From Bryobacteraceae bacterium (GTDB taxonomy: Bacteria > Acidobacteriota > Terriglobia > Bryobacterales > Bryobacteraceae), in contig JANWVO010000027.1 of the NCBI GenBank assembly GCA_025056865.1, positions 1-64,000 of the forward strand: DNA of 64,000 nt, given 5' to 3'. Under the pieces are notes generated by a model that was not told where the DNA came from, ran no database searches, and saw only the letters and a program-made list of their open reading frames with translations. This document shows, one piece after another, positions 46,942 to 53,097 of this stretch (its first letter is position 1; each line of letters begins with the position of its first letter). A program made the position numbers and the translations under genes.

Positions 46942-46964
46942 GCGCGCCGTTGTACGCTGTCTGC

Positions 46965-49598
46965 ATGAGGCTGCTCGTTGGCCCGCCCGGCTCCGGCAAG
47001 ACCTCCCGTGCGCTGGAGGAATTCGCCAGCGCGGCGCAGCAGGGAAAGGCCCTGTTCGTCGTGCCCACGGCCACCATGGCCGAACATGTCCGTCATGAGC
47101 TGGCGCGGCGGGGCCGGCACATCCGCCCGTCATGGGTCACAACCATGGCCGGCCTGCTCCGCAGCCTGTTGCCGGAGGCCCGCGTCGCCGGCGCTCCCGA
47201 GCTCGCGCTGGTCGTCGAACTGGCCCTGGCCGGGCGCCCGGATCTGTTCGCCGGGCTCCGCGGCAGCCCCGGCCTTTCTGGCGCCCTCGCCTCGGCTTTC
47301 GAGGAGCTGGCCTACGCCGGCGTGGACTCCCTCCAGTTGGAATCGCTCGTCCGCTTCATCGCCCTTCGGCCCCATCCGGATCTTGTCGCCCTTTACCCTG
47401 CGGTGGAGCAGACGCTGCGGCAACACGGCCTCCGCCTTCGTGCGCAGGCCCTCCTCGAAGCCGCCCGCCGCCTCGCGCAGAACGGCGCGCCCTGGGATGC
47501 CGTCTGGTTCGACGGATTCTTCCTGTTCTCCGCTGCGGAAAGAGAGCTGCTCCGCGCGCTTTCCGGCGTGGCGCGCGTGACGCTCACGCTGCCCGAATGG
47601 GAAGGGGCCAGGCCGGTGATCGAGTTCTTCCAGAAGAGGCGCGCCCGCGTGGAGCGGCTGTCTCCGCAACGGCCCCGGCCGCAGGTGACGCTGATTTCCG
47701 CCGCGTCGCGCGAGCACGAAGTGGAAGAGATCGCGCTGCGCCTCATCGAAGAGCACGCCGCAGGCCGTCCCTGGCGCGAAATGGGCGTCGTGCTGCGCAA
47801 CGAGGAAGCCTATCTCGCCCACTTCGAGCGCGTCTTCTACCGGACCGGCATCCCCTGGCGGGCCTACTTTGGACGCGCCCTGCGGCGGGAGCCCGTCTTC
47901 CTGCTCGTCCGCCGGTTCGTGGATGCCCTGCGCAGCGGTTGGGAAGGCGAGGCGACTCTCGCGCTGCTCGGCTCCCCGGCGTGCGCGGCCGCAGGCCAGA
48001 TGCGCGCCAACGGCCTCTGGGCCAGCATCGTCAGTCAGTTGCCCTTCCGTGGATTGGACCGTCTGGCGCGCCTGGCTCCGGCCGCCGCCCGCTTCCTGGA
48101 GCCCTTCGCCAACTGGCCTCAGCTTGCCCTCCCGCCCCGTCAATGGGCCGCCCGCCTGCGTGAGCTCTGCCGCCTCCTGGCTCCGCCTCCGTCGGACCGC
48201 CCGCTGGCCGAAGAAGAGCTTCGCGACTTCCGCCTTCGCGCCGCCGCCTTGCGGGAGATCCTCGATCTGGCGGAATCGGCCGCCGGTCTGCTGCCCGAGG
48301 ATCCGCTCCCGCTCCCCGGTTTCTGGCAGCATCTGGAAGCGGCGTTGCAGGAAGCGCGCATCTACGCGGAGGAGATCCGGCGCGACGCCGTGCACCTGCT
48401 CGACGTCGAGGAGTCGCGCCAGTGGGAGTTGCCCGTGGTCTTTGTCTGCGGGCTTCTGGAAGGCGAATTTCCGCGCCGCGTCCAGCCGGACCCGCTGCTG
48501 CCGGAGGGCGTCCGCACCGCGCTGGCGGCGCAGGGCGTCGACATCCGCACGCGCGCCAGCCTCGAAGCGGAAGAGCGGTTCCTGTTCGAGGTCGCGCGCA
48601 CGCGCGCCAGCAGCAGGCTCTTTCTTTGCTGGCCTGACCGCAATGACAATGGCGACGCGCAGCTTCGCGCATTCGTGCTGGACCAGGTGCAGACGGAAGG
48701 CGCGCCCAAGGCCGTCGCCCGCCGGCTTGCCATCCGCCCCTCGCGCGTGCCGCAGGCGCCGCCGCGGCCCCGCCTGGCCGCGGACGATCTCCTCGCCGCT
48801 CTGCGTCAGGTGCATGCGCACATCGCTGCCACGGCCATCGAGTCCTTCCTCCAGTGTCCCTTCCAGTTCTTCGCAGGCCGCACGCTCCGGCTGAAGGAGC
48901 CCGAAAAGCTCCCCTCGGCGCGGCTCGATTCCCTCTTTCTGGGCACGCTGGCCCACGCGATCCTTACCGAATGGCACCAGCGGGGCGGCGACATCGGCCT
49001 CATCACCGAAGAAATGTGGGACCGCGAAGCCAGGCGCAAGGGCATTCCGGAAGGGTACCGGGCGCTGCTCGCCCGGGAGGCGATGAAGCGCAACCTCCGG
49101 CTGTTCGCCCGGCAGGCGGGCCTTCAGGAAGGCTGGCAGGTCGAGCTGGAAAGAGACTTGCGCCTCCGCCTTGCCGGCGTGGAAATCCAGGGACGGGCCG
49201 ACCGCGTCGACACCTCTGCCGACGGGCGCTGCGTCGTCTACGACTTCAAGTACTCGAGCGGCTCCTCCGTGTATCAGCGCCAGCAGCGGGAAGAGGCCGG
49301 GCTCAGCATCCAGGGCGGCCTGTATGCCGAAGCGCTGCGGCAGGAAGGCCTTCAGCCGGAGTCCATCCAGATCGTCCTGTTGAAGAACGAAATCGGGCGC
49401 GTTGTGGCGGACACGCCCGAAGAGGTGGAAGGCCGCATCCAGACTGCCGTTGCCGCTGCCACCGGCGCGATCGAGGGGATCCTCGCGGGGCGCATCGAGG
49501 TGAATCCCGCCGACCCGGACCAGTGCACATGGTGCAGCTTCCGCGACGCCTGCCGCCTCCAGCAAGCCGCTCCCGCCGTCCTCGCCGCCACCGAATAA
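46965..49598 (+). CDS. AddB-like PD-(D/E)XK nuclease with P-loop and Fe-S cysteines
   Basis: An 877-residue protein related to the AddB subunit of AddAB helicase-nucleases. The N-terminal P-loop is GPPGSGKT (6-13). The RecB-like nuclease is at the C-terminus: H664, D746 in GRADRVD and the DFK motif at D760-K762. Four cysteines (C631, C854, C857, C863) have the spacing of the AddB Fe-S staple. Chi recognition and end processing are known for the family. No addA-like helicase is adjacent here. TTG 46950 is an alternative start, but ATG 46965 places the P-loop normally. Confidence 0.86.
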   Translation: MRLLVGPPGSGKTSRALEEFASAAQQGKALFVVPTATMAEHVRHELARRGRHIRPSWVTTMAGLLRSLLPEARVAGAPELALVVELALAGRPDLFAGLRGSPGLSGALASAFEELAYAGVDSLQLESLVRFIALRPHPDLVALYPAVEQTLRQHGLRLRAQALLEAARRLAQNGAPWDAVWFDGFFLFSAAERELLRALSGVARVTLTLPEWEGARPVIEFFQKRRARVERLSPQRPRPQVTLISAASREHEVEEIALRLIEEHAAGRPWREMGVVLRNEEAYLAHFERVFYRTGIPWRAYFGRALRREPVFLLVRRFVDALRSGWEGEATLALLGSPACAAAGQMRANGLWASIVSQLPFRGLDRLARLAPAAARFLEPFANWPQLALPPRQWAARLRELCRLLAPPPSDRPLAEEELRDFRLRAAALREILDLAESAAGLLPEDPLPLPGFWQHLEAALQEARIYAEEIRRDAVHLLDVEESRQWELPVVFVCGLLEGEFPRRVQPDPLLPEGVRTALAAQGVDIRTRASLEAEERFLFEVARTRASSRLFLCWPDRNDNGDAQLRAFVLDQVQTEGAPKAVARRLAIRPSRVPQAPPRPRLAADDLLAALRQVHAHIAATAIESFLQCPFQFFAGRTLRLKEPEKLPSARLDSLFLGTLAHAILTEWHQRGGDIGLITEEMWDREARRKGIPEGYRALLAREAMKRNLRLFARQAGLQEGWQVELERDLRLRLAGVEIQGRADRVDTSADGRCVVYDFKYSSGSSVYQRQQREEAGLSIQGGLYAEALRQEGLQPESIQIVLLKNEIGRVVADTPEEVEGRIQTAVAAATGAIEGILAGRIEVNPADPDQCTWCSFRDACRLQQAAPAVLAATE

Positions 49599-49760: not shown

Positions 49761-51978
49761 TCAGGCTCCGGGCTCGCTGTGCGCCGGGCGAACCCGTAAC
49801 ACAAACCAGACGAGCGCCACCGCACCCACCGCGAACAGCGTATCGCCCGGAGCGCGCATCCACCGCAGCGCCTGCATCCAGGGCGTTTGCAGGAACTCCA
49901 TGCTGCGTGCGTACCAGTAGCTCTGGCTCACGCTGGCGCAGGTCTGCAACAGCCCCACCGGCAACAGGCTGAACACTGTCATCGCGAACAGCCCGCCATT
50001 CATTGCCCAGAAAGCGAATCTCATCGCACGTTCGCTCCACTCTTCCTCCCGGCTCATCGCCCGCAGGCACACCAGCATCAGGCCGATGCCCAGCATCCCG
50101 TACACGCCGAACAGCGCCGCGTGTCCGTGCACCGGCGTCGTGTTCAGGCCCTGCATGAAATAGAGCGCGATCGGCGGGTTGATCATGAACCCGAACAGGC
50201 CCGCGCCCAGCATGTTCCAGAACGCCACCGCCACGAAATAGTGGATCGGCCACCGGTAGCGCCGCGCCCATTCCGTCGCCTGCCCGCGCCGCAGATCGTC
50301 CAGCGCGCCATAGGCGAGCATCGTCAGGGGCACGACCTCGAGCGCGCTGAACACCGAGTCCCAGGCCAGAGCCACGGTCGGCGTGCCCGTGAAGTACAGG
50401 TGGTGGCAGGTGCCGATGATCCCGCCCGCGAGGTAAATCGTCGCGGAAAGCAGCGCCGCCTCCGCCGCCAGCTTCGCCCTCACCAGGCCGAGCCGCGCGA
50501 AGAAGAAGGCAATCACCGCCGTAGCAAACACCTCGAAGAAGCCCTCCACCCACAGATGCACCACCCACCAGCGCCAGTACTCCACCATCGAAAGGTGAGA
50601 GTGCTGGCCCCACATGATCCCCGCTCCATAAAACAGGCCGATCGCGCCGGCGCTCATCAGGAAGATTGTGAGCAGCGGCTTCTGGTCTCCCGCTGTCCGA
50701 AGCGCCGGCTTCACGGCGCGGATCACCAGCACCAGCCACAGCAACAGCCCTGCCAGCAGCAGCACCTGCCAGATGCGCCCCAGATCGACGTATTCGTACC
50801 CCTGATGCCCCCAAAGGAACGCCTGCCGGTCCGTCAGCCGGTTGTGGATGCTCAGCCATTCCCCCGCCAGCGAACCCGCCACAATCGCCAGCAGCGCAAG
50901 GAAAAGTGCGTTCACTCCCAGCTTCTGGTGCCGGGGTTCATGCCCCGAAATCAGCGGCCCGATGAACAGCCCGGCCGCCAGCCACGATGTCGCAATCCAG
51001 AAAATCCCCAACTGGATGTGCCACGTCCGGGTCACGCTGTACGGCAGCCACTTCGACAGCGGAATCCCATAGAAGCCATCGCCCTCAACCCCGTAATGAG
51101 CCGTCACCACGCCCGCTACAATCTGCGCCAGAATCAGCAGCGCGGCCACCCAGAAGTACTTGAGCGTCGCCCGCTGGGACGGCGTCAGCTCCAGCTTCCG
51201 CAGCGGATCCGCCGCCGGGCGCTCCAGCGGCGTCTCCCTGGCCTGCGACGCGTACCACCACACCATCGCGCAGATGCCTCCCAGCAGCATCAGGATGCTT
51301 ACGCCCGTCCACATCACGCTCTCGCCCGTCGGCCGGTTTCCCACCAGCGGCTCGTGCGGCCAGTTGTGCGTGTACGTGATCGTATCTCCCGGCCGGTATT
51401 GTCGACGCCGACCACGCCGTCCACCAGAAGAACGCCGCCAGCTTCCGCGCCCGCTCCGCGTCCGGCACTGCACCCCTGGGAATCGCGTAGGCAGGCTGCC
51501 CCTCCGCAAACAGCTTCGCGTAATAGGCTGCGTTGGCCTCGAAGGCCCGCCCGCGCACCCCGTCAATCACAATCGTGTTCGTCGCGGCATCGTACGTGTT
51601 CGTCCGGAACATCTTCTCCAGCCGTGCCCGCAGTGCGCCCTTCTGCTCCTCATCCAGCTCCCGGAAAGTCCTGCCGTGTCCGGCCCGGGACCATTCCTCC
51701 AGGACAAACTCCAGTTCGCGCCGCAGCCAGTCCGCCGTCCAGTCCTGCGCCACGTAGCTGCCGTGGCCCCACACCGAGCCGACTTCCATCCCGCCCATGC
51801 TCTGCCAGATGTTCTGCCCTGCCGGGATCTCTCCCGGCCCGATCACCGTCGTCCCGTCCCGTGTGACCACGCGGTCCGGGATGGGCGGCTTCTCCTGGTA
51901 GATCCTCGTCCCGATCCAGCCGAGAATCGCGAACGAAATCGCGGTCACGGCGCCAAAGGCGAGCCAGAGCCGTTTCAT
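49761..51978 (-). pseudogene. norZ: quinol-dependent nitric oxide reductase, interrupted by a frameshift
   Basis: Would reduce NO to N2O using quinol, at the inner membrane. Reading from ATG 51978 the first ~193 residues match the N-terminal part of qNOR (IWQSMGGMEVGSVWGHGSY, AAFFWWTAWSAST), then the frame shifts. The remaining ~545 residues lie in another frame (GDTITYTHNWPHEPLVGN, HLWVEGFFEVF, HHLYFTGTPTVA, HGHAALFGVYGMLG) and hold the catalytic helices. Removing one base near 51398 restores S-T-N-R-P-G-D and gives 738 residues, normal for qNOR. So it is either a recent pseudogene, a sequencing error or a programmed shift. It is divergent from the SPFH gene. Confidence 0.88.
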
Positions 51979-52142
51979 CCTTGGAACTCCTTTGCACGGC
52001 GAGCTGCCGGTTGTCCTCAGTCTCGGCTGCCCCGGTTGTGGGTTCCATGACTCCGGTCACACAAAGATCCGCGCATCCGGCAAGGGCGGGCGCGGCCTTC
52101 CCGGCTGGCCCCGGCACCCTGTTCCAGCCGCCGGACGGCATC

Positions 52143-52171
52143 TTGACTGGGTGGTATCGAAGTGATATCAT
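52143..52171 (+). promoter_or_regulatory. near-consensus sigma-70 promoter for the SPFH gene
   Basis: TTGACT at 52143-52148 and TATCAT at 52166-52171 are separated by exactly 17 bases. An inverted repeat GGTATC-N5-GATATC (52153-52158 and 52164-52169, one mismatch) overlaps the spacer and -10 box, so a repressor could bind there. It lies 45 to 73 bases upstream of the ATG at 52216. Which protein binds is unknown; the downstream ribbon-helix-helix gene is an obvious candidate. Confidence 0.6.
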
Positions 52172-52178
52172 TTTCATA

Positions 52179-52195
52179 GCAGGGCGCTGCCCTGC
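52179..52195 (+). other. 5' leader hairpin
   Basis: Perfect 7-bp arms (GCAGGGC at 52179-52185 and GCCCTGC at 52189-52195) with a three-base loop. It starts about eight bases after the -10 box, so it would sit at or near the very 5' end of the SPFH transcript, and it ends nine bases before the GGAGG ribosome site. It may protect the mRNA end or modulate translation. There is no U-tract, so it is not an intrinsic terminator. Confidence 0.6.
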
Positions 52196-52215
52196 CAGAA
52201 AGCGGAGGTTCCCTC

Positions 52216-52216
52216 A
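52216..52216 (+). promoter_or_regulatory. start site of SPFH gene fixed by GGAGG
   Basis: GGAGG at 52205-52209 lies about six bases before the ATG, fixing the start of the SPFH gene. Confidence 0.5.
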
Positions 52217-53097
52217 TGCTCAAAGAGCGAGTCATCGAAGCCTGGAATGGCATCCCGGTCCTGGTGCTGTCGATTGCCGTCCTCATCGCCTCCATCGCCG
52301 GTCTCATCTGGACGGCGAGGCATGCCGGGCCGGAGATGCGGGGCATGCTGGTTGCGTTCTGGATCGTGGTGCTCGTTCTGGACGTGCTGGCATGGCCCGG
52401 TTTCTTCACGGTCCAGCCGAACCAGGGCGTGGTGCTGATGCTGTTCGGCCGCTATGTGGGCACGGTGCGCCAGCCCGGCCTGCGTTTCGCCAACCCGTTC
52501 TACACCAAGAAGCACGTCTCGCTCCGGGTGAGGAACTTCGAGACGTCGAAGATGAAGGTGAACGACCAGGACGGCAACCCGATCGAAATCGCCGCCGTCG
52601 TGGTCTGGAAGGTCGTCGATACCGCCGAGGCCATCTTCCAGGTGGACAACTACGAAGACTACGTGCATGTCCAGAGCGAAGCCGCCGTCCGCAATCTGGC
52701 CACCGCTTACCCCTACGATGCCCATGAAGAGCACCAGGTCTCGCTCCGGGGCAGCACCGCGGAGGTGGCGGCGCGGTTGAAGGAGGAGATCCAGGAACGC
52801 CTGGCGGTGGCGGGCGTGGATGTCATTGAGGCCCGCATCAGCTACCTTGCTTATGCGCCGGAGATCGCCGCGGCGATGCTCCGCCGGCAGCAGGCGGCCG
52901 CCGTGATCGCCGCCCGGCAGAAAATCGTGGAGGGCGCGGTGGGCATGGTGGAAATGGCTCTGGAGATGCTCGCCCGCAGAGGCGTGATCCAGCTCGACGG
53001 CGAGCAGCGCGCCGCGATGGTGCAGAACCTGCTCGTTGTCCTGTGCGGCGAGGCCGCCGCGCAGCCGGTGCTCAACACCGGCACCATCTACCAGTAG
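52216..53097 (+). CDS. SPFH/Band 7 domain membrane protein
   Basis: A 293-residue stomatin/prohibitin/flotillin-type protein. Two N-terminal hydrophobic segments (about 14-33 and 42-62) are followed by the SPFH domain (about 65-260; motifs FFTVQPNQGVVLMLFGRY, GLRFANPF, AVVVWKVVDTAEA, then SYLAYAPEIAAAMLRRQQA). Such proteins form membrane-associated oligomers. The Arc-type ribbon-helix-helix gene follows after 15 bases; this SPFH plus RHH pairing recurs in bacterial genomes, but its role is not established. It has its own strong promoter and is divergent from the nor gene. Confidence 0.92.
   Translation: MLKERVIEAWNGIPVLVLSIAVLIASIAGLIWTARHAGPEMRGMLVAFWIVVLVLDVLAWPGFFTVQPNQGVVLMLFGRYVGTVRQPGLRFANPFYTKKHVSLRVRNFETSKMKVNDQDGNPIEIAAVVVWKVVDTAEAIFQVDNYEDYVHVQSEAAVRNLATAYPYDAHEEHQVSLRGSTAEVAARLKEEIQERLAVAGVDVIEARISYLAYAPEIAAAMLRRQQAAAVIAARQKIVEGAVGMVEMALEMLARRGVIQLDGEQRAAMVQNLLVVLCGEAAAQPVLNTGTIYQ

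Follow-up and report, generated by a model that had tools for sequence, protein, structure and literature searches.

In the stretch of DNA analyzed here (the window, 64,000 nucleotides), the gene norZ for a single-chain quinol-dependent nitric oxide reductase (qNOR) is distributed over two reading frames of the minus strand, 51978-51400 and then 51395-49764, as the result of one surplus base. Judged from its sequence, norZ of this Bryobacteraceae-type acidobacterium encodes an ordinary single-chain quinol-dependent NO reductase, and the break is probably a very recent, real one-base mutation in an ordinary rather than a new kind of gene.

The first frame starts with the ATG at 51978, comprises 193 codons with ACA (51402-51400) as the last one, and reads MKRLWL...FFWWTAWSAST. 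The second frame, at an offset of +1, starts with CGG (51395), reads RPGDTITYTHNWP...HSEPGA, and ends after 544 codons at a stop codon at 49763-49761. Between them, at 51396-51399 of the minus strand, four bases are found at the place of a single three-base Asn codon, which is AAC in all four same-genus genes; the split of norZ by one surplus base, proposed from a sequence-only reading of this DNA, is thereby confirmed. That reading had placed the base at 51398, a position which fits the data, but homology narrows the surplus base only to 51399-51396. The open frame of the N-terminal part runs about 104 codons past the break and ends with the stop codon 51087-51085; as the second frame is open upstream to at least 51566, both frames overlap by about 480 bases. 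Due to this overlap, the switch point was placed by homology and by third-position GC, which swaps frame near 51400. As had been stated earlier, neither half contains an in-frame stop, and the joined protein of 193 + 1 + 544 = 738 residues has the usual length, compared to 735, 735, 735 and 738 residues in four relatives.

The N-terminal part (51400-51978, minus strand, 193 codons) encodes a cytochrome c-like domain (PF22085, E 1.7e-54) and the C-terminal part (49761-51395, minus strand, 544 codons plus stop) the catalytic COX1-type domain (PF00115, E 8.8e-61). Experimentally solved qNOR chains match the C-terminal part over nearly its whole length with a best E of 2.7e-186, whereas the chains of cytochrome c-dependent NO reductases (cNOR) reach only 4.4e-26. 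With E values of this order for both parts, the split gene is not a product of chance. The two domains expected for a qNOR are present in the right order, but in different frames, while they are fused in the relative P0002; what the window's gene lacks is one continuous reading frame. In an intact relative, the cytochrome c-like domain extends over residues 34-208 and the COX1 domain begins at residue 270.

A comparison of the open reading frame among related genomes, which had been suggested as a check, was carried out. The source genome is a 4.18-Mb draft in 61 contigs, and the same-genus set consists of four other genomes (G001-G004) with 82-85% DNA identity, two of them in one contig. All four possess an uninterrupted qNOR frame. 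Among the best 80 of 584 confirmed loci, one of which (L011) is G004 again, 79 show a single frame across the junction and the remaining one (L079) starts after it. In a wider family search, 96 of 237 genomes gave a match at 1e-50, and two adjacent pieces in different frames were encountered in three genomes, the window's genome among them; further partial matches, such as those in G011, G035 (three stops), G085 and G220 as well as pieces at contig ends, are outside this tally. The other two genomes, G005 (break near the same residue) and G196, were considered as recurrences of the break at this site, but two N are present in each of their breaks (L121, 2528-2529, and L122, 1894-1895), so that these represent assembly gaps. 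On the sequences compared, the frame break is private to the window's genome among the relatives examined, and this speaks against a conserved programmed frameshift. Separately, 2 of 104 qNOR loci (L025 and L072, from uncultured Bryobacteraceae and uncultured Schlesneria assemblies) carry a mid-gene in-frame stop, and broken or misread qNOR genes therefore do occur and are not unique to this genome.

For the terminal branch leading to the window's gene, dN was 0.037 and dS 0.384 (dN/dS about 0.10), and the corresponding pairs of dN and dS for four intact relatives were 0.030/0.166, 0.038/0.428, 0.008/0.175 and 0.009/0.116. As controls, 51 genes of the same contig were listed and 31 were used; 3 were left out on account of stops ahead of the gene and 17 because one of two orthologues was lacking. 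On the G000 branch these 31 controls had a median dN/dS of 0.154 (5-95% range 0.061-0.318) and norZ, with 0.096, does not exceed them. Similarly, dN on the G000 branch divided by dN on the G002 branch gave 0.88 for norZ, compared to a median of 0.81 (0.45-1.43) for the controls. The synonymous divergence of norZ (0.385) was above that of most controls. By simple arithmetic on these figures, norZ would have evolved without constraint for about 1% of the branch and for at most about 5%. In sequence terms both halves thus look constrained, to a degree that is also seen among intact relatives and controls. Apart from the single lesion, which is not accompanied by a second one, the terminal-branch comparison with relatives and controls revealed no measurable decay, as would be predicted by both of the explanations initially favored, recent decay and base error.

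One qualification concerns P78 and G540, two positions at which norZ is unlike the other 120 of 121 alignment rows; the halves are therefore not wholly free of oddities. In an alignment of 94 rows, three norZ residues were unlike all other rows (P78Q, V278A and G540D) when 0.28 were expected (P = 0.003). With 29 rows there were 4 private changes (2.1 expected, P 0.15) and with 31 rows again 4 (2.0 expected, P 0.14), a set in which the intact G001 was more extreme (7 changes, P 0.002). With 71 rows 2 private changes were counted (P 0.11) and with 121 rows also 2 (P 0.032), namely P78Q (codon at window position 51747) and G540D (50360). As P ranges from 0.003 to 0.15 depending on the rows employed, these substitutions were rejected as proof of decay, and at the sequence level they may be taken as a weak hint of it. 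A W-to-C change was also discarded as a sign of decay, the column being variable with W in 66 of 94 rows. CoxI and an OGDH-like protein from the same genome showed no private deviations, but their much shorter branches make them weak controls.

Upstream of norZ, the AAGGAG ribosome site is kept. A palindromic motif, TGTGACCGGAGTCATG, is located at 52046-52061 (minus strand) as a putative operator of nor, and a second conserved motif, TGATATCAC, at 52162-52170 (minus strand) is shared by all five genus genomes. An exact match to the palindrome (TGTGACNNGAGTCATG) occurs once per genome and only upstream of nor in each of the five genus genomes (L247-L251); with one mismatch allowed, 4 further places were found in three of the five genomes, while the backward control gave 0. 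The palindrome may serve as operator for a nor-specific NO-responsive regulator, and the motif provides a concrete handle on nor regulation in the genus. Of the genes adjoining nor, the one at 52216-53097 codes for a divergent Band 7 (SPFH) protein; the one at 46950-49598 codes for a protein with a C-terminal PD-(D/E)XK nuclease domain and weak similarity to AddB. Since constraint, upstream motifs and the ribosome site have all been kept, any decay of norZ must be very young.

That constraint persists in both frames would also be explained if the extra base were real and the enzyme still worked through recoding at the junction or as separate chains, a combination that we regard as highly unlikely. 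For programmed +1 frameshifting at the site, from which the full enzyme would result, one could further invoke the ATA codon at the junction, which is absent from the rest of the gene; such a rare codon, however, is expected from a chance frame in a high-GC genome. The site occurs in none of the four genus genomes and in none of the 79 named loci that cover it, no first-frame stop is nearby (the next one lies about 104 codons on), two flanking segments fold no better than shuffled sequences (z of -0.48 and +0.49), and a comparison of 51000-52300 with Rfam gave nothing at the gathering score. In agreement with the earlier reading, which had ranked it as less likely, programmed frameshifting is exceedingly improbable for a site that is not conserved in relatives. 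The break lies close to where the cytochrome c-like domain ends, ahead of the COX1 domain, and this position could also suggest two cooperating chains like NorC and NorB of the cytochrome c-dependent NOR. However, translation in the first frame would not end at the break but would run on through about 104 unrelated residues, and the break is present in only one genome among the relatives examined, so that we give this arrangement hardly any credence either. Taken together, all readings other than a recent mutation or a base error are very unlikely.

The principal competitor of a real mutation is an error of sequencing, of assembly or of a mixed-strain consensus in the draft, with an intact gene in the organism. 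Such an error would agree with two halves constrained like those of intact relatives, with the kept upstream motifs and AAGGAG site and with the four intact relatives, and with the draft state of the genome (61 contigs), in which a single stray error per 100 kb is possible. On the same contig, 80 conserved frames (two rows being norZ), covering 94.6 kb of genes at ≥60% identity, were checked for frame breaks. Ten of the 80 rows were flagged, two of them norZ; six reflected similarity to a neighbouring gene (36-50% identity) and rows 27689 and 42041 were upstream extensions of the relative's frame. In the partly matched rows 67149, 31681, 71749, 121278 and 123480 a second-frame piece was absent, and the in-frame stops in intervals 64984, 108569 and 112100 lay ahead of the well-conserved gene or otherwise beyond its limits. 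Apart from norZ, the 94.6 kb of conserved frames thus showed no true frame break, although homopolymers of at least five bases occur in them 99 times. The break site is no homopolymer, its longest run being two bases. Typical homopolymer indel errors are thus not in evidence, and this mildly favors a real mutation; the two unique changes at otherwise invariant residues are a weak hint in the same direction. On balance, we consider a base error a serious possibility, if the less probable one.

According to the explanation that we prefer, a real and recent mutation, norZ would have been under normal constraint until very recently and would then have gained a single base between codons 193 and 195. 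The ribosome would read about 104 further residues out of frame before stopping, and the resulting fragment would lack the catalytic heme-copper domain. The surplus base would then be truly present in the DNA of the cell and the product of the broken gene would presumably be inactive. One lesion together with a dN/dS of about 0.10 is what such a young inactivation would show. With the catalytic domain missing from the fragment, no NO reductase of the COX1 superfamily would be left in the strain.

Each of the five genus genomes contains three COX1-family genes. In the window's genome, the second one is a CtaD/CoxA-type oxidase that scores over the NCBIfam cut-off, and the third one is CcoN-like, with its best match to the cbb3-type below the cut-off and a match to solved cbb3 oxidases at 1.5e-55. 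This leaves the qNOR as the sole NO reductase of this superfamily in the genome. NirK was found in none of the five genus genomes, and candidates for NirS were dismissed, as the PF02239 matches in all five were partial and weak (the strongest covered 114 of 368 positions at 37.5 bits). Passages of a comparative study describe subdivision 1 and 3 Acidobacteria with norBC or norZ but without dissimilatory nitrate or nitrite reductases and suggest detoxification as the role of norZ (PMC5900883). It would be nothing unusual for one strain to lose such a gene. If the mutation is real, the strain very recently lost a COX1-superfamily NO reductase kept by its relatives, which bears on the dispensability of NO removal; if the base is an error, annotation would wrongly label the strain as NO-reductase negative.

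Compared to known qNOR/NorZ/NorB enzymes with solved chains (28pn/8bgw, 6l3h and 3ayf), the window's gene resembles them in the order of PF22085 followed by PF00115, in length and in the alignment of the C-terminal part, but it is in two frames whereas the known ones are in one. As a case of gene inactivation, it resembles nirK of Neisseria meningitidis and porA of N. gonorrhoeae, for which sections of PMC2924362 describe frameshift or missense lesions in genes that are still recognizable and intact in relatives. There, nirK lesions are reported for 5 of 23 and 8 of 31 strains and the porA frameshift is identical in the strains examined; several strains are thus involved in Neisseria according to these sections (PMC2924362), in contrast to the one draft genome here.
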